Part shown: positions 7,623 through 57,429 of the stretch, one piece after another
Layout of the letters: each line of letters starts with the position of its first letter
Numbering within the stretch: position 1 is the first letter of the stretch
Assembly (NCBI GenBank): GCA_031296305.1
Contig: JARLFZ010000002.1
Span: forward strand, 1-64,000
Source: Occallatibacter sp.
GTDB lineage: Bacteria; Acidobacteriota; Terriglobia; Terriglobales; Acidobacteriaceae
Length of the DNA: 64,000 nucleotides
Reading direction: 5' to 3'
The notes under the pieces: generated by a model
What the model saw: only the letters and a program-made list of their open reading frames with translations
What the model was told of the DNA's origin: nothing
Databases searched by the model: none
Position numbers and translations under genes: made by a program

Positions 7623-7658
7623 AACTCACCTCTGTGCGACAGATAAAGATGCTATAGC

Positions 7659-7690: not shown

Positions 7691-7708
7691 ATTTGATTCG
7701 CGCCGGTT

Positions 7709-29204: not shown

Positions 29205-31943
29205 CTACTCCGATGACACGATTCTGACTGGGCCGAGCAGGCCAGCCGGCGGCGCTGGAGGTGTTGGCCGTCCCGCGCCATTCACGGCGGTCTGAGGACG
29301 CACGGCTGAGCCGGGGCTCGGTGGCGCCGGTGCCGGGCCTCTGCCAACGGGCGCGGCCCTGACTTCGATCTCGATCACATTCTGTCCGCGCTTCAGGGCG
29401 TGCGTCAGATCCCAGCGGTACGGCTGCCAGCCACGCGGCTGAAGATCAACACCGTTCAACCGCACATCCGCATAGTCGCGAACATCCGCACAATCCAGCC
29501 AGATGCGACGCTTGCCAGCAGGCTTTGTGCTCAAGACAAATTCCTTCGTATACGTGCCTGCGCCGGATACGTCCCTGACTCCCAGTTCCTGCCATGACTT
29601 CAGCGGACCAGCGAAGCTCTGGCCATTGATTTTGAGCGACCAATCGCCGCCGAGTTCCTGAACTACTTTTCGCGACGCGAGAACCGGCTCCGGCGCCGAG
29701 ACCCCGGGCGGAAGAGGGCCAATCACAATGACGCTTGCTTCATAGGGCTCGAGCACGAGAGGCAGTAGCACCGTATCTCCCTGCGCTGTGGCATCGAGCA
29801 TGGGATGAATCTGTCCTGTCGCCAAATCCCAGACCTGTGCGCGGCCATGACCGGCGACCGTCGCGGTCCGCGTTTGCTCCACGTTGCTTTCGTTGAAGAT
29901 GAAGTAGAGGTCAGCATCGGCCCATGCGCGATGCGTGTATTTGATCGACGGACACGGCTGATCGAGGTGAAAATCCGGCTTGGGCAAATCCGCGATCACT
30001 GCGGGTGTCAGATCATCCGTTGGTTCGTGCATCGCGAAGCTCAGATCGGGCGCAGGTTCCGGGTGAAGGAAGGTCCGATCAACAACCATGGACGGTGTGT
30101 TGCCAACGAAGATCACTTTTCCGCCGGTGCTTGCAAAGGTCCGCAAACGGTCCAGAGAAGCTCGCGTGATGACAACCGAGGAAGGAACGATCACGACGCG
30201 GTAAAGCTGGCCGCTCAAGTTCCTGAAGCCATCCTTCTCCAGGGTCGCCACCGAGCTGAGCGATTGCTCATCGAAGTAATCGAAGTCAATCTGATGCTCC
30301 AGCAACTCCTTCGATAGTTTTGTGGTGCTGCGATCCGCGTCTTCATCCCCAAGCCACATGCTGTTGGCCGGATGATACAAGGCAACTTGCGCGGCGGGCC
30401 GGCCGATGGACATCAGATAACCCGCGCGATTGGTGTACCACGCAAGCAAGGTAAACGACGGCGAGATAGGGATCTGGCCCGTGCCTCCTGTCATTCCGCT
30501 GCGCCCAAGCGCCCCCTGCAGCTGCAATGCGGTCAGGCCTTCGACTAATTGATAATCGAGCTGGAATTTGCCGTCGATCCCCTGCGCGCCGCCCTCCTCG
30601 GCCCATGCGCGCGGCCGCCCGAACAAGTGCGCCGCAGAGGACGCCAGCTTGGGAAAGTTATTGTTGACCGAGTAAGTCGGATCATCCGTGTTCACCATGG
30701 CCGGAACAAGCTGGTTGAGGTTATCCACGCCGGGAACTTCGACATGGCGCTCATCGCGGAAGAAATCTCCTTCGTTACGGATCAGGTCCTCGCCGTGGGA
30801 AAGATTCAGCATCAATTCTTCATGATTCAGATGGACCAGGTATTCCAGGTGATTCTGCGCGCACCACTCGGCCTGCACGCCGAAGAAACTGTTACTGAAG
30901 ATGCCGCTCCACACATCCCAGTAATCCGCCTTTACCCTCCACGCTTCTTCGGTCATTTTCGGCGCGAACAGCAATGGCAAGTAAGGCTGCAGATCGTAAC
31001 CTTTCTTTTGACGAAACTGTTCGAGTAGCGCCGGGGTCCATGGCATGAAGCCGGTGTAGTCCGGCTCATCGCCGAAGTAGCCAAGCACGGTCGTCCCGAA
31101 TTCGCCGCCAAAGAGTCCCTTGTACACTTCGTGCGTGGTCTTCAGAAACGCTTTTGTCGCTTCCGGATTCAGATAGTCAATTAATGAATACAAACTGTCT
31201 TTTGAGTACGTGCCGTCGGCGCGATTGATATAGCGCGTAGGCGAGCTGCGAAATACGTGGCGGATGAATTCGATCTCCCAATGCCCGTCCGGCGGCGCGG
31301 TCCACTTGATCCGACCATCCACAATCGGCAACGTCTCGGCCGTTCCTACCGGCGGTCCTACTGGGCCGCCCGGTGTCGGGCTCACCCCCGTCGCCTGGCC
31401 CGTCGCCGGAGGCGCGATTCTGGGTGGTGCGGGCGTATTGACAGCCATCGCCGCCAGTGTGTCCACGGGCACAGGCATGGCAATCGTCTGCCCCGGCGCG
31501 ATGCTCACACGCAGATCCGCCACGATCCCCTGCATGGTGAGTTGTGGATACTCTTCACTGATTTTTCCTCCAGCAAATCCACTGGGGTAGCTGCCTTCAT
31601 CCGCAAGCCAAACCTTCATCCCACGTTTTTTCGCTTCGTCCACGGCGAACTTCGTTAGTGCCAGATGTTCCGGTGAAAGATACTTGGGTGTCATGCCGCG
31701 CGCGGGTCCGAAATTCACGACATACATGCCCTCCTTCGTCAGGGCATCGAATTCGGTGGTGATGCGCTCCTGAGTGAGGGGACCACCCCAGATGGCCCAA
31801 TGAATCGCGCCGTACTCTCGCGGAGGAGCGAGGAAATTTGCCGCAACCTCACGGGTTGTGGGAACGGTGATCTGCTGCCACGGCTGTTGTGCAAGCAGGG
31901 TCAAGGGCGCGATGAGGAATAGGAAGGAGAATTTCGAACGCAT
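29205..31943 (-). CDS. Secreted GH106-like glycoside hydrolase (second copy)
   Basis: About 912 residues from the ATG at 31943, which starts a good Sec signal (FSFLFLIAPLTLLAQQ). YGAIHWAIWGGPLTQERITTEF near residue 45 and the following NFGPARG match the GH106 start in divergent form; the C-terminal ~150 residues are a GH2-like sugar-binding domain (YADVRLNGVDLQPRGW) with a Pro/Gly-rich tail. An insertion rich in Pro, Ala and Gly occurs near 180-220. It probably removes rhamnose or a related deoxysugar from a complex glycan. It is divergent from the TPR gene. Similarity to the other copy at 3311-6253 is at family level only. Confidence 0.78.
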   Translation of the reverse strand: MRSKFSFLFLIAPLTLLAQQPWQQITVPTTREVAANFLAPPREYGAIHWAIWGGPLTQERITTEFDALTKEGMYVVNFGPARGMTPKYLSPEHLALTKFAVDEAKKRGMKVWLADEGSYPSGFAGGKISEEYPQLTMQGIVADLRVSIAPGQTIAMPVPVDTLAAMAVNTPAPPRIAPPATGQATGVSPTPGGPVGPPVGTAETLPIVDGRIKWTAPPDGHWEIEFIRHVFRSSPTRYINRADGTYSKDSLYSLIDYLNPEATKAFLKTTHEVYKGLFGGEFGTTVLGYFGDEPDYTGFMPWTPALLEQFRQKKGYDLQPYLPLLFAPKMTEEAWRVKADYWDVWSGIFSNSFFGVQAEWCAQNHLEYLVHLNHEELMLNLSHGEDLIRNEGDFFRDERHVEVPGVDNLNQLVPAMVNTDDPTYSVNNNFPKLASSAAHLFGRPRAWAEEGGAQGIDGKFQLDYQLVEGLTALQLQGALGRSGMTGGTGQIPISPSFTLLAWYTNRAGYLMSIGRPAAQVALYHPANSMWLGDEDADRSTTKLSKELLEHQIDFDYFDEQSLSSVATLEKDGFRNLSGQLYRVVIVPSSVVITRASLDRLRTFASTGGKVIFVGNTPSMVVDRTFLHPEPAPDLSFAMHEPTDDLTPAVIADLPKPDFHLDQPCPSIKYTHRAWADADLYFIFNESNVEQTRTATVAGHGRAQVWDLATGQIHPMLDATAQGDTVLLPLVLEPYEASVIVIGPLPPGVSAPEPVLASRKVVQELGGDWSLKINGQSFAGPLKSWQELGVRDVSGAGTYTKEFVLSTKPAGKRRIWLDCADVRDYADVRLNGVDLQPRGWQPYRWDLTHALKRGQNVIEIEVRAAPVGRGPAPAPPSPGSAVRPQTAVNGAGRPTPPAPPAGLLGPVRIVSSE

Positions 31944-32110
31944 GGAGAACCTCGCATTTCTCAGGCAAAGCATTCAGATGAGAAATTGTATGTTGAATGA
32001 ATTATGAAGTAAACTGCAGATCGTATTTGGGCTCATTTCTCCCCATCCATCGATTACACCGGAGGATTATTCCCGGCAAGCATGCGAATGTTGGTTACGA
32101 GTCCTTTAGC

Positions 32111-35587: not shown

Positions 35588-35635
35588 ATCCTTCGCGACG
35601 AGGTTTGCTCCCGCGCGAAAAAAGAGGTGGTTCCG

Positions 35636-38600
35636 TTGAGTACAAGCAAAAGACTTTTCGATCTGATTTGCGGAGTCTCATTCAGATTTCGCTCCGTCTC
35701 GCTTGCGATCCTTCTCTGCATTGCGCTGGTTGCCCAAGCTTCAGGCCAGGTTCCGGCGCGACGCAATGCCGGCGGACGTCCAGTGCACGACGAAGCTGAG
35801 CGTGCCGCGCGCTGGAGGACCGTCATAATGCCCTACGAGCGTGCCGAGCTCAGTACGCGGGAGCAACAGATGGTGGCAAAGCTGGCTGACGCCTGCCGGC
35901 TGATGGACGAGTTGTTCTGGCATCAGAGTGATCAGGGTGGATGGGCAGTTTATCGCGTGACACAAAGCCCCGTGCTTGGCAAACTTTTCGGCGTCATGGG
36001 CAGTCGGTGGGATCTGTTGGATGATAACTTTCCGTTTCTCGGCGAAGAGCCCATGCCTCCCGGCCACGAGTTGTATCCCTACGGACTGAGCCGGGAGCAG
36101 GTTGATCGCTTTACAGCAACGCATCCTGAGATGAAGGCTGCGCTCTTCGATGAGCACACTGTGGTGCGGGGTACGCCGGATCATTTGCTGGCCATTCCGT
36201 ACCACGAGGCCTACGCAGAGTGGCTTCAACCGATGGCAGCAGATCTGCGCGCAGCGGCCGCGCTTTCGCGGGATACCGCATTCGCCAAATTTTTACGATT
36301 GCGTGCGGATGCCCTGCTCTCCGACGACTACTATGCCAGCGATATCGCGTGGCTCGATCTAAAGAATCCGAAAATCGATCTGATCTTCGCGCCGTACGAA
36401 ACCTATCTGGACGAACTGCTCGGTGTGAAGACTTCGTATGGCGGGGCCATTCTGATTCGCAATCAGGAGCAAAGCCGCAGGCTGGACGTTTATCAAGCGA
36501 ACGAATCCGCCATGCAGCAGGCGCTGCCTTTGCCCGACGCGGACAAACCGTCGAAGCAGGGCCAGGCCACGCCGATGGAGGTGGTCGATTCGCCGCTTCG
36601 TGCGGGCGATCTGCGGTACGGCTACCAGGCGGTGGCCGACAATCTGCCCAACGATGCACGCATTCATGCAGAGAAGGGAACGAAAAAGATCTTCTTCAAA
36701 AACTTTATGGATGCGCGAGTGAATGACGTGATTCTGCCCATCGCAGCCCGGATGCTGACGCCGGCGCAGGTTAACGATGTTACTGCGGACGGGTATCTTA
36801 CCTTTGTGATACTGCACGAGGTATCGCACGGACTTGGGCCAGCATACGCACACGTTAACGGCAAGCAAGTAGATATTGACGAGGCCATCGGCGGGGCATT
36901 CGACGAACTCGAAGAGTCCAAGGCCGACGTCACCGGTATCTTCCTTGCTAAATGGCTGGTCGATCGAAAGATTCTGCCAGATAGCATGCTCAACAAGATT
37001 TACGGTTCGTATGCGGGCGATATGTTTCGCACACTGCGGTTCGGCGCAGGCGAAGCTCACGGGCGCGCCGAGTTAATGGAGTTCAACTATCTGCTGGAGC
37101 AAGGCGCTATCCGGCAAGGCGCAGACGGCCGTTACGCCGCCGACTACACGGCAATGCCGGGCGCGATCGCAAGCCTGGCTCAGAGGCTGCTCACATTCGA
37201 GGCCGAGGGCGACCGAGCCGGCGTGGAGGCCTGGTATGCCAAATACGATGTGATGCCGGGCTCGCTGACGAAGGCGCTGGAGTCGATCAAGGACATTCCG
37301 GTGGAGATTGCGCCGGAGTTCGAGCTTGCCGGCGGGATGCGGCAAATGAACAAAGTCATCTCGACACAGCAGCCCGCGCTGACACCGCATCATCATGATG
37401 CCGCGCATCAGCTTCCGGGTACGATCATTGTTCCTGCATCTGACTTCTTTGCCACGATTCCATCGGGCGACAGCAACGATGGACGCTTTCCAGCGGGGGA
37501 GTGGTTCTTCAACAACGACACGATCAACATGAGTGTGACTGGCGATGTGACGGCGAAGGTGCCCGTGAAGGAAGCCGGCGTCTATCACCTTTTCGTGCGC
37601 AGCATCGGTACGGCATCAAGCTCGTTCCGCGTCACGATCGATGGCAAGGAGGACGCGGGCTCTTACGGCCACGGTGCTCTTGAATGGCAGCGTGGCGGCG
37701 ACTTCACTCTCCATCCCGGAACAACGGAAATCCGCCTGACATCCATTGTGCCGAGACCGTCGTTGAATGTTCTTGTGCTGACCAAGAACGCGGACTTCAA
37801 GGAAGACGATTTGAAAGACCTGGAGCTTCCGCCGGAGGTGAAGCTGCTGCATGAGTACCACATCGAACCTTCGAACATTGTGAAGTTCGGCGATGTGGAC
37901 GGCAGCGGTAAATTCGCCATCCTCGATATCACCAATGATTACTCCGCCATCATGTATGCCAACGACGGTCACGAGCTGTGGCGTTGGAAGGCGCCGGCGC
38001 AGGATGCGCGGCTGCGCGGAGAGTTTGAGGCGCCAGGCATGCTATGGAATTTTCATCACACTGGGCGCGACGAGTTGGCGCACTGGCGCATGATCGACGG
38101 CAAGGAGTGGCTGGTGCTTTGCGATGGCCGCACCGGAGAGATCCTGAAGAAGGTTCCTTGGCCAGCGCCGCCGATGCCGCATGTGTATAACAATTACCGA
38201 ATGGCGGTGGCAAAGTTTCACAAGGACTCCGATGGGCCCGACACGCTGCTGGTGCTCAGCGATACTGGGGGCTTGATCAGCCTGACGGCATACGACAAAG
38301 ACCTGAATCAGATCTGGCAGCACAGCGAGCATCGCGACAAGGATTATTTTGGCCACTACATTTATCCCTATGACGTGAACGGCGATGGCATCGATGAAGT
38401 CTTCATCAGCCACCTCTGCCTTGATGCGAATGGAAACGAGGTGTGGAATAACGCCAAGTATTTTGAGAAGAACAACGACCATATGGACGCGATGGAGTTC
38501 TTTGACATCAATGGCGATGGCAAACCGGAACTGTTGACCAGTCAGAGCGACGTAGGCACATTGGCATATAACGCACGAAACGGAGACATTCTGTGGCAAA

Positions 38601-39124
38601 ATCTCTCTGACCATTCGCAGCAAATTACCGCCGGCTACATTCTCGGCGACTCATCCACGCCGCAGGTAGTTACCAACGGCCGGACCTACATACCGATGAC
38701 GAGACCTCCTGGAGCCATTCCAGGACAGGGGCCCATGAGGATGGCTGTGCCCCCCGGTGAAATCGGAGTTGGCGGCGGGCTTGGTGCGCAGCTTTACTGG
38801 TTTGACAATCGCGGCAAGCTATTGGAGACATGGCCCGCCCATCCGTTATACGGCAATCCCAATTTCGTGCGCGGCGACTGGTACGGCACCGGCAAACGCA
38901 CTTATTTCTGGTACCGTTTCAAGCTTGAGCCGGACGGCAACGCTACGCTCTTCTTCAAAGGCGAGGTCTATCACATGTTCGACTTCGATCACACGGGCGC
39001 GGATCAGGTGATTACTCTCGACGGCGAGACTTTGCGCGTGTATGGCAACGCAAACGTTGTGCCTAACCCCGTCAAGCGGGATGCAGAGTATCGGAGGACG
39101 ATTGCCAACCATACACACTATTGA
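35636..39124 (+). CDS. M49-type zinc metallopeptidase fused to a carbohydrate-binding-like domain and FG-GAP propeller
   Basis: About 1162 residues. The start is a TTG at 35636 with AGAGG at good spacing; an in-frame GTG lies at 35627. After a signal peptide, the first ~570 residues match the DPP III-like (M49) group: HEVSH at about 394, followed by EESKAD at about 426, which is the zinc-binding HEXXH...EExKAD pattern. A beta-sandwich (about 610-725, VPASDFF to LTKNADF) then leads into a propeller with repeats such as FGDVDGSGKFAILD, DVNGDGIDEVF and DINGDGKPELL, of the type found in PL11-like and FG-GAP proteins. There is no frame break across the junction. It closes the DUF6152/DUF6644 operon. 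The peptidase substrate and glycan role are unknown. Confidence 0.8.
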   Translation: MSTSKRLFDLICGVSFRFRSVSLAILLCIALVAQASGQVPARRNAGGRPVHDEAERAARWRTVIMPYERAELSTREQQMVAKLADACRLMDELFWHQSDQGGWAVYRVTQSPVLGKLFGVMGSRWDLLDDNFPFLGEEPMPPGHELYPYGLSREQVDRFTATHPEMKAALFDEHTVVRGTPDHLLAIPYHEAYAEWLQPMAADLRAAAALSRDTAFAKFLRLRADALLSDDYYASDIAWLDLKNPKIDLIFAPYETYLDELLGVKTSYGGAILIRNQEQSRRLDVYQANESAMQQALPLPDADKPSKQGQATPMEVVDSPLRAGDLRYGYQAVADNLPNDARIHAEKGTKKIFFKNFMDARVNDVILPIAARMLTPAQVNDVTADGYLTFVILHEVSHGLGPAYAHVNGKQVDIDEAIGGAFDELEESKADVTGIFLAKWLVDRKILPDSMLNKIYGSYAGDMFRTLRFGAGEAHGRAELMEFNYLLEQGAIRQGADGRYAADYTAMPGAIASLAQRLLTFEAEGDRAGVEAWYAKYDVMPGSLTKALESIKDIPVEIAPEFELAGGMRQMNKVISTQQPALTPHHHDAAHQLPGTIIVPASDFFATIPSGDSNDGRFPAGEWFFNNDTINMSVTGDVTAKVPVKEAGVYHLFVRSIGTASSSFRVTIDGKEDAGSYGHGALEWQRGGDFTLHPGTTEIRLTSIVPRPSLNVLVLTKNADFKEDDLKDLELPPEVKLLHEYHIEPSNIVKFGDVDGSGKFAILDITNDYSAIMYANDGHELWRWKAPAQDARLRGEFEAPGMLWNFHHTGRDELAHWRMIDGKEWLVLCDGRTGEILKKVPWPAPPMPHVYNNYRMAVAKFHKDSDGPDTLLVLSDTGGLISLTAYDKDLNQIWQHSEHRDKDYFGHYIYPYDVNGDGIDEVFISHLCLDANGNEVWNNAKYFEKNNDHMDAMEFFDINGDGKPELLTSQSDVGTLAYNARNGDILWQNLSDHSQQITAGYILGDSSTPQVVTNGRTYIPMTRPPGAIPGQGPMRMAVPPGEIGVGGGLGAQLYWFDNRGKLLETWPAHPLYGNPNFVRGDWYGTGKRTYFWYRFKLEPDGNATLFFKGEVYHMFDFDHTGADQVITLDGETLRVYGNANVVPNPVKRDAEYRRTIANHTHY

Positions 39125-39239: not shown

Positions 39240-41990
39240 TCATCCTTCGGCCGGGCCCGCCAGAAGTTGTGGAACCAACGTTGACAAACCATCCGCCAGA
39301 TTCACCGGCCGGGCTACGAGCTGAACCTTCGCCGATTTAAGGCCGGGACGGCTGGCGGTGACGGTAATGGTCCCGGCTTGCAGAGTCGAGCGCACGAAAA
39401 CGCGGTTGATGCCGCATTCGGTATTCAAATACAGATTGTTTGTCGAGTCTATCTTGCCGCTGTTATAGCCGCCGCGCCAAATGCCGGGTCCTGAAATTGC
39501 AAAGTCGACTCTTGCGTCATTGGTCGGGCAGCGTTGGCCCTTCGCGTCGACGACTTCAAAATCGATGAAGGCTGCATCCTGCCCATCGGCCTGGAGCCCC
39601 AGCGGGCCGACCGTCGAAGTGAGTCTGATCGCCACAGGAGGGCCAGTGGTGATCAGTTCCTGCGCGGCCACCACTTTGCCCGCGTTCCTGCCCACCGCCT
39701 TCAGGGTCCCGGGCACAAACGCAACATCGGGAAATGCGAAGACGAAGCCGTTTTCCGGCTTCGAGTTGGTGCCCAGCGACTTTCCGTTGAGGAATAACTC
39801 CACTGAGTTGGTGTTCGCGACAACGTAGACGGTTTTCACTGTCTTGTGCGCGGGCTGAGCCGGGATTGCCGGCAAGTCAGGCATCGGAGGACGGCCAGGC
39901 ACCGCAGGCCAGCCTGGCACCGCGGGCTCTTCCGGACTGGCGGGTTGCTCGAGCGGATAACTCCAATGCCCAAGAATATGCAGGTCCGGCTTGTCGTTCT
40001 GCATTACGCGATGAGCGAAGTAAATCTCCTTGGGGAGACGCACTGCATCCACTTTGCCGCTCACGCGGCAGACTTCGCTAGAATCCTGGCGGCCGTCCGC
40101 ATCGGAATCGGAGAAATAAATCGAGGCGTATCCGGACCACTTCGAATGCGCTGGATCGGGATTGGAGATGCGGTTTTGCCAGTACGCCCAATAGCGTTCG
40201 ATACCGGCCAGCGCGAAGCTCTCCGAAGTGAAGAGATACCGTGACCGATTTCTCCACGTGTCGTTCGGTCCCTTCTTTGCTTTGTAGTAAGGCGGCGAGT
40301 CATCGTCCCAGAGGCGGCGCGCGCCTTCCTCGCGGAAGTCTTCGGCTTCGACCAGCGGAGCGCGATCGCGGCGATAAGCGGTGTATCCGCGGAACATGTC
40401 GTTGGGTCCGGCCAACGCATCCGTCTTCGGATCCTGGCCGATCATGACGCCGTAGTACTCCGCGATGGGCGTGAGCGCGGCGTTGGCCGCTAGGTCGTCG
40501 TTATCGCGATAGCCCATTACGCGCCCGCCATATGGATCCCACTGCTTGCGCAGCGCGACCATTTGCTCCATTTCTTCCTGCGTAACAATTGTGTTGCCCG
40601 CCTCCCAGAAGAGAATGCTGGGATTGTTGCGGAAGTAGATGATCGAATCGCGCATAACTTCGAGACGCTGTTCCCACTGGCGCCCGGTAACCTCGCGCTC
40701 CTTATCGCCCGCCGGGCAAACCTGGATGATGCCGTAGCGGGCCATCGCATCTGCGTCCACTTTCTGCGGCGAGATGTGCATCCAGCGCATGTAGTTGCCG
40801 TGGCAATCGCGCATTAGTTTGATGGTATAGTCGTGCAGCCAGTCCGGATTCGCTCCGCCGAGGGCCGCCCACTCATTGCTAGAGCGTTGCGCGAAGCCTT
40901 TCAGATAAACAAACTTCTCGTTGAGATAGACGCCTCCGGTTCCCGCGCCTCCTTTGAATTCGGCTTTGCGAAATCCGGTAACCGTCTTCTCGACGTCGAC
41001 AACCCTGCCGCCGACTTTGAGGACGGTGTACACGTTGTAGAGGTAAGGATCTTCGGTACTCCAGAAGCGCGCATTCCTGAGCGCGCCTGTCGCGGTCAGC
41101 AGCCTCTTTTCGCCATTCGCCATGTCGACAGGATCGCTGTCGAACTTTGCCCGGATCTGCCCGCGGTGGTCGACGATCACTGCAGAGAGACTCACAGCGG
41201 CGCGCTCACCCGAATCGTTGCGAACCTCGGAGTCGACTGTAATGTCGGCCGTCTTTCTCGCAATGTCGAAGTTGGCGGCATGCACGTAAACGCCACTGGT
41301 CTCGAGACCGTAATAGAGAGGCAATGTCTGGTGGATCTTGCCGGTGACGTGCAGCCAAACATGCCGGTTGATGCCTCCATGGTCGGGATTGAAATCGTTG
41401 GCATTCCATTCAAACGGAGTTCCGGTAGCGCGCTCCTTGTAGTCCGTGCGGTTGTCCACCTTCACCGCCAGCACGTTCTCCTGAGATCCAAAGTGCACCG
41501 CTTCGCTGACGTCGATGCCGTAAGCGGTAATTCCGTTTTCATACAAGCCGACCGCTTTCCCGTTTAGAAAAATGTCTCCGGCCTGGCGCATACCCTCGAA
41601 TTCGAGAAAGATCTTTCGGTCCGAGAAGCCGGCCGGAAGCCTGAAGTGCTTGCGATACCACGAGAGCCCCTTGTAGGTTCCCAGGTCGCCGCCGCTGTGA
41701 GAAATGATTTTCCTAAACGAGTCGACGTCGTTGAAGCTGTGCGGAGTGCTGACGGTTGTCCAATGCGAATCGTCAAAGTCGGGAGCTTCCGCGCCGGGCA
41801 CATCTTCGCGGATAAATCGCCAGTTCAGATTGAAGTTGATCCTGGACCGCGGGGAGGCGGGTGGCGTGAAACGCGCAGCTTGAGCGGTGGCGAGGATACT
41901 GCGCACCGGTCCTGTCACCACAGGTAATCCGGCTGCCGCGACGGCGGCTGTTGAAAGAAACTCGCGGCGGGATATGGGAGGTCTCAGCAT
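39240..41990 (-). CDS. GH2-family glycosidase, Tat-exported, with DUF4982-like C-terminus and altered acid/base motif
   Basis: About 916 residues from the ATG at 41990 (AGAGGAA upstream). SRREFLSTAAVAAAG is a Tat signal. Domains in order: GH2 sugar-binding (FNLNWRFIRED), Ig-like, TIM barrel, a Pro-rich repeat linker near 700-740 and DUF4982/invasin-like beta domains. The canonical GH2 acid/base motif GNE reads FWEAGNT (E463, T467); a glutamate lies three residues before the asparagine instead. A candidate nucleophile region is PLVEAEDF. It may be beta-galactosidase or glucuronidase-like. It is divergent from the protease-like gene at 42233 and converges on the peptidase fusion. Confidence 0.85.
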   Translation of the reverse strand: MLRPPISRREFLSTAAVAAAGLPVVTGPVRSILATAQAARFTPPASPRSRINFNLNWRFIREDVPGAEAPDFDDSHWTTVSTPHSFNDVDSFRKIISHSGGDLGTYKGLSWYRKHFRLPAGFSDRKIFLEFEGMRQAGDIFLNGKAVGLYENGITAYGIDVSEAVHFGSQENVLAVKVDNRTDYKERATGTPFEWNANDFNPDHGGINRHVWLHVTGKIHQTLPLYYGLETSGVYVHAANFDIARKTADITVDSEVRNDSGERAAVSLSAVIVDHRGQIRAKFDSDPVDMANGEKRLLTATGALRNARFWSTEDPYLYNVYTVLKVGGRVVDVEKTVTGFRKAEFKGGAGTGGVYLNEKFVYLKGFAQRSSNEWAALGGANPDWLHDYTIKLMRDCHGNYMRWMHISPQKVDADAMARYGIIQVCPAGDKEREVTGRQWEQRLEVMRDSIIYFRNNPSILFWEAGNTIVTQEEMEQMVALRKQWDPYGGRVMGYRDNDDLAANAALTPIAEYYGVMIGQDPKTDALAGPNDMFRGYTAYRRDRAPLVEAEDFREEGARRLWDDDSPPYYKAKKGPNDTWRNRSRYLFTSESFALAGIERYWAYWQNRISNPDPAHSKWSGYASIYFSDSDADGRQDSSEVCRVSGKVDAVRLPKEIYFAHRVMQNDKPDLHILGHWSYPLEQPASPEEPAVPGWPAVPGRPPMPDLPAIPAQPAHKTVKTVYVVANTNSVELFLNGKSLGTNSKPENGFVFAFPDVAFVPGTLKAVGRNAGKVVAAQELITTGPPVAIRLTSTVGPLGLQADGQDAAFIDFEVVDAKGQRCPTNDARVDFAISGPGIWRGGYNSGKIDSTNNLYLNTECGINRVFVRSTLQAGTITVTASRPGLKSAKVQLVARPVNLADGLSTLVPQLLAGPAEG

Positions 41991-42232
41991 GGGTGTTCCT
42001 CTTTCTTCCATTGTTTTCGATGGACAAGGAAGGCGACGTTCACGGCCATAGTACTTAAATTCAGCGGTGATTTCCATTGTGAGTTAATATTCTCGATCCC
42101 CGGATCGTCTCAAATGCCAGTGTTCAGGAAGGAGCCAATGAGAGAAAGATCGCGAGCGGCGTGCATACGGCGGTATATTAGTTCGCAGCCAAAAGGCAGA
42201 ACCGAAGTTCTTAGTAAGGAGGTCGAGCGCCA

Positions 42233-43462
42233 ATGAAGGTTTGGACGGGTATAGCACTCTTGATCGTGATCGGGCCCAGCCTGGGAAGTCTGCGTGCACA
42301 GACTTTGGAAGAACTGAAAATGATGTTTGACGCCAATCAAGCATTCGCGCTGCGCGAGGCGGTCAAGCACGGTCACGCGCCGGCCTTCTATCGCGGTGCT
42401 GTGGAAGATTCTGAGAATCGCACCGCGGCCGCGCAAAAAGATCTAGAGAAGGCGATTCGTGCGAATCCGCGCTCGGAAGAGGCGTTTGAGGCGCACGAGA
42501 TGATCGCCAATATGAATTTTCGAGAAGGGCGTTATCACGATGCGCTGCTCGAAGCTAAGGCCGCGCACGCCGTCAAGCCAGATTCGGAAGACTTGAACAA
42601 TGAGCTGCCTTTATTCGAAGCACTGGCCGCGTCGCCGGATATGCAATTGGTCGAGCGGCGGGACTCGCATTTGGAGCTGACGCGAGACAGTGGCGGGTCG
42701 CACGGGCTGCAGATGACGATTGACGGGAAGGGAGTGACGTATGGCTTTGACTCCGGCGCGGCGCTTTCGGTGATGGGAGTATCGGACGCGAAGATGCTTG
42801 GGCTGAAGGTGCAGCACGTTAAGAGCAATCTGACGGAGGCAAGCGGGAAGGCGATACCCGGATTCGATCTTGCTATTGCGACGGACCTGGTGATTGCTGG
42901 ATTGCACCTCCGGAATGTTCCGTTCTTTGTGTTGCAAGATACCGGTGAGCCATGGGTTCATGTGCCGGTCGGGAGCCGGGGCCTGATCGGGCTCCCGGTT
43001 CTGCTTGCGATGCAGACCGTTCGCTGGCAGCATGGAGCCTGGTTTGAATTTGGCGAGTGCGTGCAGGCGAAGTCGCACGCTGCGCAAAACCTGCTGTTCC
43101 ACGGAGCGACGGCGATTGTGCAGGTGAGTGTGGAAGGCAAAGCCCTCACCTTCAGCCTCGATACTGGCGCGGCAGACACCGATCTGAACGAGGGATTCGC
43201 GAAGGCTCTTCCGGATCTGGTGGAGGCAGGAACGAAGGAGACGCGTGCCATTACCGGTTTGGGCGGAAGCAACGAGTACGATTCGGTGTTGCTGGGGCCA
43301 ATAGCGCTTGATGTGGGCGGAAAGATAGTGACGCTACCGTCGCCGCACGTATTTCCGGCGCACACCCTGGGAAAGTTCGATGGCAATCTGGGCAACGACA
43401 TTCTCAAGCAGACGAAGGCTGTCACGCTGGACTTCAGGACGATGACGCTCGAGCTGGAATGA
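42233..43462 (+). CDS. Exported protein with TPR-like helices and two retropepsin-like aspartyl protease domains
   Basis: 409 residues with a signal peptide (to LRAQT). Helical repeats with ALREAV and DLEKAIRANPRSEEAF occupy about 25-130. Two retropepsin-like domains follow: the first has GFDSGAALSVM (a DSG variant) with GLIGLPVL, and the second SLDTGAADTDL (DTG) with GNLGNDIL. One polypeptide could thus form an internal pseudo-dimer with one aspartate from each. AAGGAGG precedes the ATG. It is divergent from the GH2 gene, 242 bases away. Substrate and role are unknown; a cell-envelope function is plausible. Confidence 0.82.
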   Translation: MKVWTGIALLIVIGPSLGSLRAQTLEELKMMFDANQAFALREAVKHGHAPAFYRGAVEDSENRTAAAQKDLEKAIRANPRSEEAFEAHEMIANMNFREGRYHDALLEAKAAHAVKPDSEDLNNELPLFEALAASPDMQLVERRDSHLELTRDSGGSHGLQMTIDGKGVTYGFDSGAALSVMGVSDAKMLGLKVQHVKSNLTEASGKAIPGFDLAIATDLVIAGLHLRNVPFFVLQDTGEPWVHVPVGSRGLIGLPVLLAMQTVRWQHGAWFEFGECVQAKSHAAQNLLFHGATAIVQVSVEGKALTFSLDTGAADTDLNEGFAKALPDLVEAGTKETRAITGLGGSNEYDSVLLGPIALDVGGKIVTLPSPHVFPAHTLGKFDGNLGNDILKQTKAVTLDFRTMTLELE

Positions 43463-43735
43463 TCGGCTTCCTTGGCTTTGAACAAGCCTCCTGGTGGCGC
43501 TGCTTTTCCGTGCGAGAGATAGCAGGCTTTCACCTTCAATCAGCCTAGCAATTGTGTACGGAATGGAATACAAATGCCTCGTTCGCTCTCTAAATGGCAC
43601 GCCGTCAAACGCATGCTGTGGTAATCTGCTCTACGAATCCGGAGCCATTTCCGCGATCAAGTTGTCGTGGGACTCTTTCACATGCTCTGCAAAGAGCCCG
43701 TCGTTCTGCTCTTCTGAGGCTCAGGTAGACCGCAC

Positions 43736-44770
43736 ATGTCGACAGTCACTTTGAAAGACGTTGCGAAAGCTTTAGGCGTCTCGGTCATGACCGTGTCAAA
43801 GGTCATGCGCGACCAGGCCGGCGTGGCGGCAAAAACGCGCAAGCGTGTGCAGTCTAAGGCTGCGGAGTTGGGCTACCGGCCGAACTTAACGGCGCGCAGC
43901 CTTGTTACGGGACAAAGTTCCCAGGTTGGGATCATTGTGCCCACGCTTCTTCATCCGTTCTTCGCGGAGGTTTTGGATGCGCTTTCCTCGACTTTGCAGC
44001 AGGGCGGATATGCCGTAATGATCTCTTCGTCTCTGGAGAATCCGGCCATCGAGGAGGCAGCGATTGAGCAGCTTCTTGCGCATCGTCTCGATGGTTTGAT
44101 CATTGCGTCCTGCAATTCATCTCCGGAGAAATTCAAACAACTCGCGGAGCAGAAAATTCCATTTGTTCTCATCGATCGTTACTTCCCCGGCTTCAAGACC
44201 AACTTTGTCGGCGTCGACGACGTAGCCGTGGGGCGCATTGCAACAGAACATCTCATCGAAATGGGATGCAAGCGGATTGCGCACATTCGCGGCCTGGAAT
44301 TCACCACTGGACTGGGCAGGTACGAAGGATACAAACGGGCGCTCAAGCAGCACGGAATGAATTTCGATCCCAGCCTGGTGAGTCCCTATGTGACCGCGGA
44401 CGGAAAAGACTGGCAGCAAAGCTACGACGCCATGCGAGGCTTGCTCAAGGTTGATCGGCCCGACGGTGTCTTCTGCTACAACGATCCGATTGCGTTTGCC
44501 GCGATCGAAGTGGCCCTGGAAGCAGGCCTTCGGATTCCCGAAGACATTGCGTTTGTGGGCTGCGACAACCTCCATTTCGATACCACCATCCGAGCGCCTC
44601 TAACGAGCATTGATCACCATAGCGGTCTGGTGGGAGTTCGTGCCGCCAAGATGCTGCTAAGCCTGCTGAAGAGCAAAACTTCCCAGTCGCCGCGGCACGT
44701 TGCCCTGAAGCCTTCGCTCGTGGTGCGGCAATCCTCGCTTCACAACGGGCGGGGACACGCGACGGCATGA
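43736..44770 (+). CDS. LacI-family transcriptional regulator
   Basis: 344 residues. The N-terminal helix-turn-helix is textbook: VTLKDVAKALGVSVMTVSKVM, then GYRPNLTARSL hinge region. The C-terminal part is a periplasmic-binding-protein fold with VGIIVPTLLHPFF, VLIDRYFPG and PEDIAFVGCDNL, so it binds a sugar-like effector. A perfect palindrome with central CG, the normal form of LacI-family operators, lies 125 bases after its stop and in front of the TonB receptor gene, making that gene its likely target. Effector identity is unknown. Confidence 0.93.
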   Translation: MSTVTLKDVAKALGVSVMTVSKVMRDQAGVAAKTRKRVQSKAAELGYRPNLTARSLVTGQSSQVGIIVPTLLHPFFAEVLDALSSTLQQGGYAVMISSSLENPAIEEAAIEQLLAHRLDGLIIASCNSSPEKFKQLAEQKIPFVLIDRYFPGFKTNFVGVDDVAVGRIATEHLIEMGCKRIAHIRGLEFTTGLGRYEGYKRALKQHGMNFDPSLVSPYVTADGKDWQQSYDAMRGLLKVDRPDGVFCYNDPIAFAAIEVALEAGLRIPEDIAFVGCDNLHFDTTIRAPLTSIDHHSGLVGVRAAKMLLSLLKSKTSQSPRHVALKPSLVVRQSSLHNGRGHATA

Positions 44771-44855
44771 GCTCTGGCGGGAAATCCACGTTTTCTGGGC
44801 GCCCTCCTAAATCTTGCCTCTTCCGGAAAATACTCCATTAACATGTTTAGAATTC

Positions 44856-44876
44856 AATAGTTTATCTAATAGTTTA
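44856..44876. repeat. Short direct repeat AATAGTTTA x2
   Basis: Two copies of AATAGTTTA start 12 bases apart, upstream of the palindrome and promoter of the TonB receptor at 45051. The position suits a binding site for an activator, but the region is A+T-rich and chance is possible. Confidence 0.45.
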
Positions 44877-44895
44877 GGTATCGTTAAATATTTTT

Positions 44896-44909
44896 GTGTA
44901 ACGTTACAC
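44896..44909. promoter_or_regulatory. LacI-family operator
   Basis: GTGTAACGTTACAC is a perfect 14-base palindrome with a central CG, the symmetry used by LacI-family proteins. It ends eight bases before the -35 element of the receptor promoter, and the regulator gene is the next gene upstream. Confidence 0.75.
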
Positions 44910-44916
44910 TTTTTTC

Positions 44917-44945
44917 TTGACAATTGGTGGATTGCGCGTTAACAA
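44917..44945 (+). promoter_or_regulatory. Sigma70-type promoter for the second TonB receptor
   Basis: TTGACA (44917-44922) and TAACAA (44940-44945) are separated by 17 bases. The transcript would have a leader of about 100 bases before the ATG at 45051. Confidence 0.68.
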
Positions 44946-45050
44946 TCGCATTCGAAAGAAATTCAGCAGGGAAACCGTTCGCGCTGTTCCCCAAATCCCT
45001 GTTCTTCCCTTTCGCTTGCTGTTTCACAGCTTCAACCCTGGAGGTCAAAG

Positions 45051-48000
45051 ATGCTGCAGTTGATTTCACGTCCCGGACGTTCCGCGCCCGCAGGATTCCT
45101 AGTCACATTTTTGGTGCTTCTTCTCGTCACCGCGCTACCCCGTGCATTGCAGGCTCAGACCGCCGGTGAAGGCGGAGTTACCGGCACGGTGACGGACAGC
45201 ACGGGCGCGGTAGTTGCTAAAGCAGCTGTGAGGGCCACCAACGCTTCGACCCATATCTCGACCGAAACGACGACGGATTCGGCGGGTCTTTACACCATCT
45301 CCCCATTGCCCGTTGGAACTTACTCCGTGACGGTAACGGCCAAGGGCTTCAAAACCATGACGCAGGAGAATCTCCACGTCGATGCGCTCAATGAATTGGC
45401 GTTCAACCCGGTACTCACGGTCGGCGTGGCGACAGAAACTGTGACCGTGACCACGGCCCCTCCGGTGCTGGATACGGAAAGCCCCATCCTGGAAGGCACG
45501 ATGGAGAATCAGGATTACGCCGCTTTGCCCATCGTCATGTCCACCACGCAGCAGCGCGATCCCACTGCGTTTGCCGTGCTCTTGCCGGGCGCCCAGGCCG
45601 GATCACGCACGCCACTGATTGCCGGTCTTTCCAACTACCAGGGCTATCTCTATCTGGATGGCGTGCCATCTGAGACCATCAATCAACAGGGCGACAACCG
45701 CACGGTTGCGTTGAGCATGAGCGTTGAAGCCGTCGATCAGTTCCAGATCACCACCAGCGTCCCGCCGGCGGAGTACATGGGAGCCGGCGCATCGAATTAC
45801 ACCATGAAATCCGGAGGCCACGATTATCACGGCCAGGCCTCGGATTACGTGCGCAACACCGTCCTGGACGCATGGAATTTCTCGCAAAAGGAAGCAACCG
45901 TAAAGAACGCCGCGGGACAGACGGTCGCGGCGCCGAAGAATATCGAGCATGCAAATGAGATGTCAGGATCCGTTGGCGGTCGTGTCCCTCATACGGGAAG
46001 CAAGTTGTTCTTCTTCGTCGCCTACGACAAATACCACTCCCGCTTGAACGATACCCCTGGCCAGCTTACGATTCCCACCGCACAGGAGGAAGGGGGCGAC
46101 TTCTCCCAGTTGGCTGACGCCAATAACGATCCCTTCATCTTCGATCCGGCGTCCAATAGCTGCGTCGGCAGTAGCTGCACACGAACGGCGTTTTCGTATA
46201 ACGGCAAGAACAACGTGATTCCGGCCGGCAGGATTTCGGCGATCACGCAGAAGATGGAGTCGTTCCTGCCCAACTATCCTAATTCGCCCAACGCCAACCT
46301 GTCGGGCAACGTCAACACCGCCGTGCTCACGAATAACTACCTCGGCACGCAAATCAACGGCCGCGACAGTCATCTTTACGACTGGCGGGTGGACTATGAT
46401 TGGACCGCGAAAGACCGCGTATCTGCTGTCGGCGCGATGGGGCAGTTTGTGTATCTCAACAATTTCGGCTCCCCATATCTTCCGCTGCCGTATGCTGTGG
46501 GCGATTATGCCACCATCGTCCCCAAACAATACAACATCGAGGAAGTGCACACGTTCAATGACCACCTGACCAATCAATTCAAGATCGGCTACACGCGTTT
46601 CTTCATGCCCATCACCAACCCCACCGATGGCGTCTCGCAGTACGATATTGGAACTTTTGGCGTGACCAATCTGCCCACGGGCCAGGCGGGAAGGGAGTTT
46701 CCCGGCGTCTCGTTTTCAACCTCCGGGGCAACCACCGTTAATCCCACCACCTGGACTACAAACAGCAACTCGGCTTCAACCCAGCTCACCATCCCCAACA
46801 ACTATGCATTGGTCGACAACGTGCTGTGGATCAAGGGCAAGCATCAGTTCACCTTTGGCATGACCTACCAGTTTGAAGGTCTCAACAACGCCAACCCGGC
46901 CACCTTTACCGGTGTTCTTTCTCTGCCCTTCGACCAATATGCCACGGCAAACTTCACGGCAGGCAGCTCAGCGATCGATACCAAGTCAACCGGCTATGGA
47001 TACGCCAGCTTCCTGCTGGGCGCAGTGGGCGCAACCGGCAGCGGCGCCACAGGCATATCACTACCGCTGCAGAATGTAGCCACCATTTATAGCCGCATCA
47101 AGGCCATCGCGCCGTTTGCTGAGGATACTTACAAACTCAGCAAAAAGCTGACCGTCAGCTATGGGCTACGCTGGGACTATTTGCCGCCGCTTCACGAGAA
47201 GTTCGACCACTTCACCTTCCTGAATCCCACCGCCACGAATTCGGCTACAGGGACCCCTGGTGCGCTGGAATTTGATGGAAGTTACGGTGGTCCAAGTGTC
47301 AGTTGCGGCTGCGTGACGCCGTTGAAGACTTACTGGAAGAACTTTGGTCCGCGACTGGGTTTTGATTACGCGATAAACGACAAGACCGTGATTCGAGCGG
47401 CTTCTGGTCTCGTCTACTCCCAGGGCGGAGGCACTGGCGGCGGCCGCACCTCCGGCGGTCCCGGCGCTTCCAATGGCGCGGGCCAGGCCCTCGGATTCAA
47501 CACTACGGCGCAGGCGGTGGGAGATACTCTTTCCGGTCCAAGCGCCGGTCCATCGTTCTATCTCAACAGTTCCAATACCTCGCTCTTCGGCCCCGGGTTC
47601 ACCTACCCCAGCGCTCCCACGCCCGGCGCGGCAAGCACCATCCTGAACACCGGCAACTATCTCAACGGCAGCGGCGCAGTCGTGACCGCGGGACAGATGG
47701 GATATGACGATCCCTATGCGGGCGGGCGCGCGCCGATGTATACCTTCTGGAACTTTGGTATCGAGCGGAGCCTCACCAGGGACATTACCTTGAACATTAA
47801 CTACGTGGGAGACGAGGCCCATCATACCTGGGACAGCGGCGCACAGAATGCGCGTGGTTACTGGAACAATGAGCCGAATCCCCTTTACCGTGCCCTTCTC
47901 GGCGCCGTGAACGGAACGAACTCCAAAGGATCAACTGTGTCTATTCTGACTGCGCCTGCGACGACAGCGAATGTGGCCATCATGAATGCGGCGGCCCCCG

Positions 48001-48986
48001 GATTACCAAACCCCGCCTTCTTTATCGCTGCTGCAAACGCGGCACCTTCCAATTCCAATCTAACTATCGCGCAAATGCTGACTTCGTTTCCACAGTACAG
48101 CGGCCTTCAGGACGGATGGGGCGGTGCCTTTGTGGAGAATTACAGCTATGAGGCGATTCAGGCCACTGTAAGCCAGCGCACGGCCCATGGCCTCGCCTTC
48201 AACTTCAACTTCACGTTCTCAAAGAACATCGGAGACGACGGTAACTTCCGCAGCGGTTGGAACATCCCGGCGTCGGCCATCGACGGTCACGCACAAGCCT
48301 GGAAGCAGGACCGTATCGATCGCTCCTGGACGACCACCTCGGCGCCGTTCATTCTGAATACCTACGCCGTCTACCAGCTTCCCTTCGGCAAGGGCAAGAT
48401 CGGCGCCAACAACTGGCTGGTCACGCAGCTTGCCGGCGGATGGACGATCTCCGGAGTTTACCAATACAGCTCCGGCGGACCGTTCGGCGTCACGTGGAGT
48501 TCGGGCGGCCAATGCGCCAACGGATACACGACTCTGAATGCTTATACGTGCATGCCGTCTCTCACTCCCGGATACTCCGGCCATCCACGCATCAATGGCA
48601 AGTTCGGTAGCGGGCCTAACGGCTACGTGTTCGCCAATGCGAGCAACATCAAATACCTCGACATTGGTGCGTTCTCGCAGCCGGCGAATATATCAACCAC
48701 CGGCAACTCCGCCCAGTACCTGATTGGCAATGCGCCACGCACCGCGGCGTATGGTATTCGCAATCCCGGCAATCAAACCAACAACCTTTCCATCCGGCGT
48801 GCCTTCCCCTTCCTTCACGAAAAGATGGCGTTCATCCTGCAGGCGGACTGCTCGAATTTCCTGAACAAGATGATCTGGGGCGGCCCCAGTGCAGGCTGGG
48901 GGGTCGGCTCTACGACATTCGGTGAAGTGAATGCTCCTGGCACAGCGCCTCGCGACTGGCAGATGTCAGGACACGTTACGTTCTGA
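45051..48986 (+). CDS. TonB-dependent receptor, Oar-like (second)
   Basis: 1311 residues from an ATG with TGGAGG upstream. A signal segment (about 14-36) precedes the carboxypeptidase-regulatory-like domain (VTGTVTDSTGAVVAKAAV), a plug with AVLLPGAQAGS, and a long barrel ending in WQMSGHVTF. It shares architecture with the receptor at 7709-11245 but differs in sequence through the barrel, so a different ligand is likely. The upstream LacI regulator, operator and promoter indicate induction by a sugar. A hairpin follows the stop codon. No SusD homologue is adjacent. Confidence 0.92.
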   Translation: MLQLISRPGRSAPAGFLVTFLVLLLVTALPRALQAQTAGEGGVTGTVTDSTGAVVAKAAVRATNASTHISTETTTDSAGLYTISPLPVGTYSVTVTAKGFKTMTQENLHVDALNELAFNPVLTVGVATETVTVTTAPPVLDTESPILEGTMENQDYAALPIVMSTTQQRDPTAFAVLLPGAQAGSRTPLIAGLSNYQGYLYLDGVPSETINQQGDNRTVALSMSVEAVDQFQITTSVPPAEYMGAGASNYTMKSGGHDYHGQASDYVRNTVLDAWNFSQKEATVKNAAGQTVAAPKNIEHANEMSGSVGGRVPHTGSKLFFFVAYDKYHSRLNDTPGQLTIPTAQEEGGDFSQLADANNDPFIFDPASNSCVGSSCTRTAFSYNGKNNVIPAGRISAITQKMESFLPNYPNSPNANLSGNVNTAVLTNNYLGTQINGRDSHLYDWRVDYDWTAKDRVSAVGAMGQFVYLNNFGSPYLPLPYAVGDYATIVPKQYNIEEVHTFNDHLTNQFKIGYTRFFMPITNPTDGVSQYDIGTFGVTNLPTGQAGREFPGVSFSTSGATTVNPTTWTTNSNSASTQLTIPNNYALVDNVLWIKGKHQFTFGMTYQFEGLNNANPATFTGVLSLPFDQYATANFTAGSSAIDTKSTGYGYASFLLGAVGATGSGATGISLPLQNVATIYSRIKAIAPFAEDTYKLSKKLTVSYGLRWDYLPPLHEKFDHFTFLNPTATNSATGTPGALEFDGSYGGPSVSCGCVTPLKTYWKNFGPRLGFDYAINDKTVIRAASGLVYSQGGGTGGGRTSGGPGASNGAGQALGFNTTAQAVGDTLSGPSAGPSFYLNSSNTSLFGPGFTYPSAPTPGAASTILNTGNYLNGSGAVVTAGQMGYDDPYAGGRAPMYTFWNFGIERSLTRDITLNINYVGDEAHHTWDSGAQNARGYWNNEPNPLYRALLGAVNGTNSKGSTVSILTAPATTANVAIMNAAAPGLPNPAFFIAAANAAPSNSNLTIAQMLTSFPQYSGLQDGWGGAFVENYSYEAIQATVSQRTAHGLAFNFNFTFSKNIGDDGNFRSGWNIPASAIDGHAQAWKQDRIDRSWTTTSAPFILNTYAVYQLPFGKGKIGANNWLVTQLAGGWTISGVYQYSSGGPFGVTWSSGGQCANGYTTLNAYTCMPSLTPGYSGHPRINGKFGSGPNGYVFANASNIKYLDIGAFSQPANISTTGNSAQYLIGNAPRTAAYGIRNPGNQTNNLSIRRAFPFLHEKMAFILQADCSNFLNKMIWGGPSAGWGVGSTTFGEVNAPGTAPRDWQMSGHVTF

Positions 48987-49012
48987 GCGCATGGCTAGAG
49001 TCAACCCGAAGA

Positions 49013-49038
49013 GGGCGTCGTCTTAGGCAGCGACGCCC
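49013..49038 (+). terminator. Hairpin after the second TonB receptor gene
   Basis: GGGCGTCG and CGACGCCC form a perfect eight-base stem around a ten-base loop, 26 bases after the receptor stop codon. There is no U-tract, so it may stabilise the mRNA end rather than terminate. Confidence 0.5.
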
Positions 49039-49209
49039 CTACGGTCCCGACCTTTCTAATTCACCAGTAAGCGGGACGGCGTGAGAAAGAAACGAATATA
49101 TTTCGATCCATTCATCCGATGAACGCCGGTCAGATTGCACCGAGTCCGATGAATTCCGTTCAATTCTCAAGTCCAAATCTTGCGCTCTCGGGAGAGGAGT
49201 TAGCTGGCT

Positions 49210-49482
49210 ATGGATAAAGTTGCGGCGGCATTGGAAGTAACACGAACGGATGACACACAAGAAGTCGTCATCATTCATCCGGATCTAAAACCAGACGCAA
49301 GCGGCATTGGTCGACTCATTTTCTCGCCACGCAATGCGCGTTATCTGGCCAACCTGCTCGTTGAGCACGCGGCCGCTGCCGAGGCTGAGGCAATCATGTC
49401 CGACGAAGTTAGGGCGGGCAATCCGACTCTCGCATTTGCGCCCGCTGGAAAACTCTCGCGCCGCAACAAGCCGCGGGATTAG
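49210..49482 (+). CDS. Small hypothetical protein
   Basis: 90 residues, hydrophilic, with no signal peptide. A strong GGAGAGGAG ribosome-binding site ahead of the ATG supports it as a real gene. A predicted beta-alpha core (EVVIIHPDLKPD, RLIFSPRNARYLANLLVEH) is followed by a basic tail (RRNKPRD). I do not recognise a family. It lies 33 bases before the trehalase-like gene. Confidence 0.62.
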   Translation: MDKVAAALEVTRTDDTQEVVIIHPDLKPDASGIGRLIFSPRNARYLANLLVEHAAAAEAEAIMSDEVRAGNPTLAFAPAGKLSRRNKPRD

Positions 49483-49515
49483 GATTGTTTGAAGTTAGAA
49501 ATGAGGAAAGCGATC

Positions 49516-50877
49516 ATGTCCGTCACCCGGCGAACAATGCTTATCGGTTCCGCCTCGCTTCTGGGGCACGAATTCATCACCCGTCAAAGCCTGGCACAAG
49601 CGGTAGCGGCACTCGCCTCGACGTCGCCGAACGACACACCGATCGCACCCCCAGCCACGGCTGCGGCAAAGACCCTCTTCAACGATATCGGCGCCAGCAG
49701 CTGGACCGAGCTCAACCACCGACTTCGTGCCGTGAACTCCGATATTCAAGCCAACGGCTTGCGCCACATTCCCGGTGTCGAAGGCACCTTTCTCACCGGC
49801 TACCCCTATAACGAGTTCTACGATTGGGATCTATACTTCGAGAACCTCTACCTCTCTTACTACGGAGTCTGGCCTTATTGCTTCACAAATCTGAAGGAGT
49901 TCCTCAACCGCCAGCAGCCGGATGGCTACATCAGTCGCAGCCTGATCGCGCAGCGCGACCGCCAGCATTTCAAGCCGTTCCTTGCCCAATTGGCGGTGCT
50001 TGGCTGCAAGCAGAATCACGACGACTACGAATGGCTCCGTGGCAACTACTACGAACGCCTGGGGAAGTACATCGATAAGTGGTTCTCTTATGACTCGGAC
50101 CACAATGGTTTGCCCGTCTGGAACTCGGCGGACGCCGCGGGAACCGACAATCAATGGTCGCGCGCCGGCGCACTCAGCTCTTTCGAAATCGAAGGCGTCG
50201 ATCTGGCCTCCTATCTCGTCCGCGAATTGCGCGCCATGTCGGTCATCGCCACTCACCTGAAACTCGATGCAGACAGCAAAGAATTCGATCGCCATGCCGA
50301 CCAGTTAAGCGAGATCATGAATTTTGCTTTCTGGGACCAGAAGCAGGGCATGTACTTCGACCGCAATGAGAAGACCGGCAATCGCGTCTACGTGAAGTCA
50401 GCCACAAACTTCATGCCGCTTTTTGCCGGCGTAGCCAAGCCCGAGCGCGCCCGGCGCATGATCCACGAACATCTGCTTAACCCAGATGAGTTCTGGCTGG
50501 CATATCCTGTGGCTAGCTATTCGAAGACAGAGCCCGACTATTATCAGGGCTCGCACCACGAATGCAATTGGCGCGGTTCCACCTGGGCGCCCACCAATTA
50601 CATGATCTTTCAGGGATTGCGCGCTTATGGATATCAGGCCGAGGCGCGTGAGCTCGCCACTCGTCTCTTCAACATGGCCTTACTCAAGAATGCCGTGCTC
50701 CGCGAATACTACAACGCCGAAACCGGCGAAGGCCTTGGCCAGACACGCTTCTGGGGGTTCACCTCTTTGTACTACGGAATGCTCCTCGAATCCATCCTCG
50801 GATACGATGCATCCACCCTCCAAAAACCAGTCGAGCCCATCGTGACTCGTGAGCTCGGCATTCAATTCCAGTCGTGA
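49516..50877 (+). CDS. Trehalase/GH63-like (alpha/alpha)6-barrel glycosidase, Tat-exported
   Basis: About 453 residues from the ATG at 49516, favoured over 49501 because GAGGAAA precedes it. TRRTMLIGSASLLG is a Tat-type signal. The barrel contains GYPYNEFYDWDLYFENLYLSYYG, which carries the catalytic-type aspartate of GH37/GH63-like inverting glycosidases, and later HHECNWRGSTWAPTNY with ETGEGLGQTRFWGFTSLYY. These features match mannosylglycerate hydrolase/GH63-type enzymes acting on alpha-glucosides or mannosides. The substrate is not fixed. The gene follows the small hypothetical gene and overlaps the possible GTG start of the hemerythrin gene. Confidence 0.82.
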   Translation: MSVTRRTMLIGSASLLGHEFITRQSLAQAVAALASTSPNDTPIAPPATAAAKTLFNDIGASSWTELNHRLRAVNSDIQANGLRHIPGVEGTFLTGYPYNEFYDWDLYFENLYLSYYGVWPYCFTNLKEFLNRQQPDGYISRSLIAQRDRQHFKPFLAQLAVLGCKQNHDDYEWLRGNYYERLGKYIDKWFSYDSDHNGLPVWNSADAAGTDNQWSRAGALSSFEIEGVDLASYLVRELRAMSVIATHLKLDADSKEFDRHADQLSEIMNFAFWDQKQGMYFDRNEKTGNRVYVKSATNFMPLFAGVAKPERARRMIHEHLLNPDEFWLAYPVASYSKTEPDYYQGSHHECNWRGSTWAPTNYMIFQGLRAYGYQAEARELATRLFNMALLKNAVLREYYNAETGEGLGQTRFWGFTSLYYGMLLESILGYDASTLQKPVEPIVTRELGIQFQS

Positions 50878-55646: not shown

Positions 55647-55677
55647 CTGCCAAAAGAAAGGCGCCGGTCGCGAATTG

Positions 55678-57252: not shown

Positions 57253-57429
57253 CCGGAAGCCAACTGCCATTTTTCAGTTGCCGAGGAGTGTCCAGGACCA
57301 GGAAACTCCCGTGAAACACCCCCGCTGACACACCATTGCGTTCAAGATCACGGGCGTTTTAGTCGGTATACAATTCAAGCCGAGTCGTAGCGTCGGTAAC
57401 GACGATCGACTAATCAGAGGAACGGAACT

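Follow-up and report, generated by a model that had tools for sequence, protein, structure and literature searches.

A probable recent fusion of a secreted DPP III-type peptidase with a CBM-like sandwich and PL11-related propeller in an Occallatibacter genome

In a 64,000-nucleotide stretch of Occallatibacter DNA (the window), one stop-free reading frame joins an M49 peptidase of the dipeptidyl peptidase III (DPP III) type to a carbohydrate-type beta-sandwich and a PL11-related beta-propeller. On balance, this gene probably arose by a recent and genuine fusion of two operon genes that had been coupled in translation, and its product would be a glycan-docking enzyme acting on short peptides or glycopeptides. 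The frame ran from TTG 35636 to a TGA ending at 39124 and encoded 1162 amino acids; all of its features given below lie on the plus strand. An earlier note on this DNA had read a signal peptide, an M49 peptidase, a beta-sandwich and a PL11-like propeller in one open frame, and the frame itself together with structure, Pfam and profile matches bore this out. The TTG start also held up, because the upstream alternative, GTG 35627, nine bases before this TTG, falls inside a Shine-Dalgarno-like GAGGTGG (35624–35630) located 5 bases ahead of the TTG, and was rejected. Residues 1–35 (35636–35740) formed a signal peptide with the core ILLCIALVA and a hydropathy maximum of 3.4 over 9 residues; judged by eye, cleavage would occur near the AQA/SG boundary.

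Residues 57–566 (35804–37333) matched the DPP III enzymes of Caldithrix abyssi (6eom, E 1.9e-99, ~33% identity over these residues) and Corallococcus (5zum, E 1.8e-91), and the peptidase model superposed on 6eom with a TM score of 0.92 by target length and an rmsd of 2.4. The Pfam M49 model scored slightly below cut-off (19.2 versus 21 bits), which is unsurprising in the short pentapeptide group. The HEXXH motif of this bacterial group was present in its pentapeptide form, HEVSH (residues 394–398, 36815–36829), and the second M49 zinc motif, EEXR(K)AE(D), was present as EESKAD (residues 426–431, 36911–36928); H394, E395, and H398 of the former and E426, E427, and D431 of the latter were invariant in 34 homologues. 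The peptidase is a member of the known ~550-residue bacterial pentapeptide-motif M49 group. By the residue list published for the Caldithrix enzyme, CaDPP III (PMC5805324), H394, E395, H398, E427, E255, D325, A334, N336, and N339 were active-site equivalents, again invariant in the 34 homologues, and CaDPP III residues E240, D310, A319, N321, N324, H379, E380, and H383 all aligned to invariant positions. That paper prints the second CaDPP III motif as E441ECKAD; in the 6eom sequence it aligned at 411–416, with the zinc-binding Glu opposite E427. Five of the six CaDPP III substrate residues (E240, E254, D310, A319, N321, N324) were kept. The sixth, E254, was replaced by Gly269, a Gly also found at this position in most of the subfamily, and substrate handling may differ from that of the characterised enzymes, given this replacement.

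The second half opened with a CBM6/CBM35-like beta-sandwich (residues 596–716, 37421–37783), assigned by comparison of predicted folds. AlphaFold modelled it fairly well, with most of residues 636–700 at pLDDT about 83–88, and Foldseek matched it to 2w47, 2cdp, and 2w1w with probability 1.00 and TM scores of 0.5–0.6 by target length; Pfam searches gave no CBM match to the second half. The propeller (RGL11_C/CGLA type, residues about 734–1140, 37835–39055) was assigned from Pfam and profile comparison. It matched PF25292 above the Pfam cut-off (E 1.2e-7) and was homologous over 353 columns to acidobacterial PL11-type propellers (hhalign 99.6%, E 2.1e-24), some of which belong to FGE-sulfatase/RGI-lyase/RGL11 proteins. 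The match to PF21348 (PL11, RGL11_C) fell under the cut-off, at 22.6 versus 27 bits, so PL11 homology was clear by profile comparison only. AlphaFold models of the propeller, within the full protein or in the second half alone, were of poor confidence; their Foldseek matches were discarded, and we claim neither a propeller fold match nor a docking surface from them. A scan of viral contigs found no relative of the second half.

Lyase-site residues, given here by YesW numbers, were read from an alignment that also included fragments of YesW and 4cag; the expected letters stood at those positions in the alignment. The calcium ligands His363, His399, and Asp401 of YesW were aligned and kept in the propeller, and the column of Glu422 held Ser388, with Asp389 adjacent. 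Arg452 and Lys535 were not kept, in a region where the alignment is weak; Arg452 also had no clear counterpart in the acidobacterial PL11 rows, so that the alignment there is not decisive. The roles of these residues were described for two Bacteroides enzymes (PMC8787155). Because Arg452 and Lys535 were not kept, we prefer docking to catalysis and hold with moderate confidence that the second half is more likely to dock glycan than to act as a lyase.

The junction was interpretable by comparison with four relatives (loci L031, L032, L034, and L156) in which the two halves lie in different frames as two genes. In all four, the peptidase TGA overlaps the ATG of the second frame in a four-base ATGA stop/start overlap (CCATGA), and the second frame then begins with its own signal peptide; genome G716 (L156), for example, encodes 601 and 587 amino acids with a 4-base overlap. 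The relatives read CGC CCA TGA or CGG CCA TGA where the window reads CGG CAA ATG AAC AAA, within the in-frame junction sequence CGGCAAATGAACAAAGTC. The ATG of the window, Met571 (37346–37348), aligned with the second-gene start codon of the relatives and now lies in the peptidase frame. Residues 567–584 (37334–37387) correspond to the former stop/start overlap and a remnant of the second signal peptide that has lost its hydrophobic core, and AlphaFold modelled them in the full protein as a low-confidence linker. The stretch ahead of the conserved HHHDAAH motif (residues 585–591, 37388–37408) was MNKVISTQQPALTP in the window versus 28–36 residues with a hydrophobic core in the relatives, and over 9 residues the hydropathy at the second N-terminus peaked at 0.47 in the window versus 2.5–3.0 in the relatives. 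The simplest account of the aligned sequences would be a net gain of one base before Met571 and an in-frame loss of roughly 14–22 codons. In the separate second proteins (L031, L032, L034, and L156), HHH(D/N)AAH stands just after the signal peptide, and the fusion retains this motif, which is possibly a metal site.

A scan of genome contigs yielded 80 loci, among which the second half was also present in only five (L031, L032, L033, L034, and L035). Among 398 family genomes, five had it, namely that of the window and four more, of which one held a remnant; among 396 phylum genomes, only that of the window did; beyond these, 399 class genomes held only distant propellers. The family, class, and phylum samples overlap. 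Peptidase homologues were common, with some match in 30 of 149 relatives, and stand-alone forms were widespread in Acidobacteriota, adjoining unrelated genes. About 70 of the M49 homologue loci that we fetched stopped at the same boundary and were followed by varied genes. Where the junction was readable and both parts were present, the halves were fused once, in the window, and separate in four cases. The fusion is not common, as it would have been under one of the earlier note's grounds for refutation.

These stop positions and the peptidase tree give the fusion a direction. In the tree, the window peptidase was sister to those of the four separate-gene relatives with support of 100/100, the four grouped at 97/90, and the clade of five was nested in a larger group of single peptidases. 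The peptidases of the outgroup end here, which makes the fusion derived; on the strength of these stop positions and the tree, we rejected fusion as the ancestral condition. On this sequence evidence the fused form is found only in the window lineage, and just one MAG contig carries it. Pairwise NG86 dN/dS was about 0.12–0.21 for the peptidase and 0.07–0.09 for the second half, rough ratios at high dS, and by these values both halves are under purifying selection; a chance open frame is ruled out, as both halves are conserved coding sequence with low dN/dS. Private changes in the second half numbered 13 amino acids on the window branch (18/11/59 by codon position) and 30 on the L033 branch (33/21/65), a comparison that gives no sign of decay of the second half in the window.

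Elsewhere, second-half sequences were partial or altered. The L033 contig starts inside the second half and says nothing on the junction. In L035, a propeller remnant comes after the peptidase stop, and G639 (L157) retains only the last ~124 residues of the second half; these remnants, at L035 7819–8633 and L157 5829–6200, adjoin carbohydrate-related genes and suggest repeated loss. In L034, a frame change around 8764–8777 inside the propeller gene marks either a pseudogene or an assembly error.

From these observations we infer translational coupling, export and cleavage, the substrate, the docking role, and the sharing of one substrate by the two parts. The ancestor would have carried a first gene for a secreted pentapeptide-type DPP III and a second for a secreted protein with a CBM6/35-like domain and a PL11-related propeller, each with its own signal peptide, joined by an ATGA overlap that presumably coupled their translation. 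In the window lineage, a net one-base change of frame just before the second ATG would have abolished the stop, and the second signal peptide would have lost its hydrophobic core, leaving one polypeptide exported by Sec through the first; the frame join and the signal-peptide loss may have come in either order. The sandwich and propeller would then dock glycan while the zinc site, with a predicted activity of N-terminal dipeptide release, would free dipeptides from short peptides or glycopeptides. DPP III enzymes cut dipeptides from the N-termini of oligopeptides. Because intact proteins are poor DPP III substrates, the substrate is probably an oligopeptide already released or taken up. The earlier note had proposed a secreted enzyme for glycoproteins or peptidoglycan-like material; the secretion signal is present, but those substrates reach further than is warranted for an enzyme expected to act on oligopeptide N-termini, and by analogy short peptides or glycopeptides are the plausible substrates of the fused enzyme. 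The apparent merger of neighbouring genes points to a joint role for the two proteins, perhaps on peptides that carry sugars. We propose only tentatively that the fused protein, like its parent gene pair, is a glycopeptide processor in which the CBM-propeller part holds the glycan and the secreted DPP III clips dipeptides off the attached peptide, the fusion indicating joint action of the separate proteins.

The genomic setting agrees with the glycan side of the earlier note's reading, as a cluster of glycoside hydrolases surrounds the gene. A GH106 alpha-L-rhamnosidase (29205–31973, minus strand, assigned from Pfam) and a GH2 beta-galactosidase-like gene (39240–42077, minus strand) are neighbours, as are a LacI-family regulator (43736–44770, plus strand) and an outer-membrane receptor of the carboxypeptidase-regulatory-domain/beta-barrel type (45051–48986, plus strand). 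In all, the glycan genes of the window comprise two GH106, two GH29, GH2, GH35-like, and GH63/78-like genes, and its other genes include the LacI regulator, MFS, DHDPS-like, MR/MLE, and Gfo/Idh genes and two outer-membrane receptors. By inference from gene content, the neighbourhood would be a utilisation cluster for a glycan bearing rhamnose, galactose, and fucose. Among relatives, a GH2-type protein is encoded downstream of the pair in both L156 and L158, and GH106 upstream of it in L158; in L031 and L032 the pair lacks an adjoining glycan cluster.

The same-genus genome G024 shares 40519–50535 with the window, with the GH2 end on another contig, and the GH2 of G031 is 83% identical to that of the window; given this downstream synteny and identity, a mis-binned contig is unlikely. 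Beside GH2 in G024, L167 carries transposase-like, GH28-like, GH35-like, and PQQ-like genes at 1812–7810 in place of the fusion, names assigned by eye except for GH35-like. Farther along the window, frames at 55624–57270 (minus strand, 548 amino acids) and 55627–57252 (plus strand, 541 amino acids) overlap almost completely in antisense; the minus-strand frame had no Pfam match.

Could the joined frame be a one-base assembly or sequencing error in what are really two genes, as in the relatives? The fusion comes from a single MAG contig (G000, 171 contigs, 84% complete), and a net change of one base at the overlap is what separates its in-frame state from that of the relatives. One base, however, leaves the loss of the second signal peptide's hydrophobic core unexplained, and unless fused, a conserved second protein would lack any signal for export. 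No long homopolymer occurs at the site, CGGCAAATGAACAAAG, and the contig sequence gave no sign of the frameshift or assembly join near residue 590 that the earlier note had raised. An error of this kind is quite unlikely.

Two other explanations accept the fusion and differ over what the second half does. It could be a polysaccharide lyase, making the protein a bifunctional peptidase-lyase, as the 353-column PL11-type homology, the retained equivalents of YesW His363, His399, and Asp401, and Asp389 beside the Glu422 column would favor; the equivalents of Arg452 and Lys535 are not kept, although the Arg452 alignment is not decisive, and the RGL11_C match is under cut-off, so we regard lyase activity as improbable. 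Rather improbable too is a propeller that merely stabilises or anchors a peptidase recycling ordinary peptides, the glycan setting being incidental. Stand-alone peptidases beside unrelated genes, the L031 and L032 pairs away from glycan genes, and the lost or decayed propeller genes of L035, G639, and possibly L034 are consistent with such a role. Against it, a CBM-like sandwich combined with a PL11-related propeller is an arrangement of carbohydrate type, and in the window, L156, L157, L158, and L035 the genes near the pair or its remnant include GH2, GH106, or related ones. A fused, glycan-docking peptidase remains our preferred reading.

If so, the fusion connects a secreted DPP III with the breakdown of glycans. 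It also offers a readable example of an overlapping gene pair becoming one exported protein through a frame join and loss of the second signal peptide, for which the separate-gene relatives are ready-made controls for the effects of fusion. A full-text search of an open library of papers found none naming dipeptidyl peptidase III together with Acidobacteria. Contrary to the earlier note's description of such peptidases as normally single-domain and often cytoplasmic, M49 fusions to Nudix in plants and to an ARM/AlkD-like domain in Porphyromonas have been published, and the ~550-residue pentapeptide group includes CoDPP III of Corallococcus, identified among extracellular proteins (PMC9820243); export is therefore not unusual for this group.

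Among known systems, the Caldithrix abyssi enzyme (6eom; PMC5805324) and CoDPP III (5zum; PMC9820243) share the pentapeptide zinc motif and an EExKAD-type motif with the window protein, but have no described C-terminal glycan-type module and differ at E254, which is Gly269 in the window. The DPP III of Porphyromonas gingivalis also carries an added C-terminal domain, but one of ARM/AlkD-like fold, a fusion reported in Porphyromonas only (PMC5708649). Plant Nudix hydrolase 3/M49 proteins (PMC5805324, PMC9820243) have Nudix fused at the N-terminus of a pentapeptide M49 domain, unlike the window protein. PL11 rhamnogalacturonan lyases such as YesW (2z8r) have a related propeller with repeated DxDGDG-type motifs and three of four calcium ligands aligned with the window, but differ in the N-terminal module, which is CBM6/35-like in the window, and in the lyase-site Arg and Lys, which do not align. 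The same two proteins, about 62–79% identical by half, occur in Granulicella MAGs (L031, L032, L034) and G716 (L156), where they are two coding sequences with an ATGA overlap and two signal peptides.
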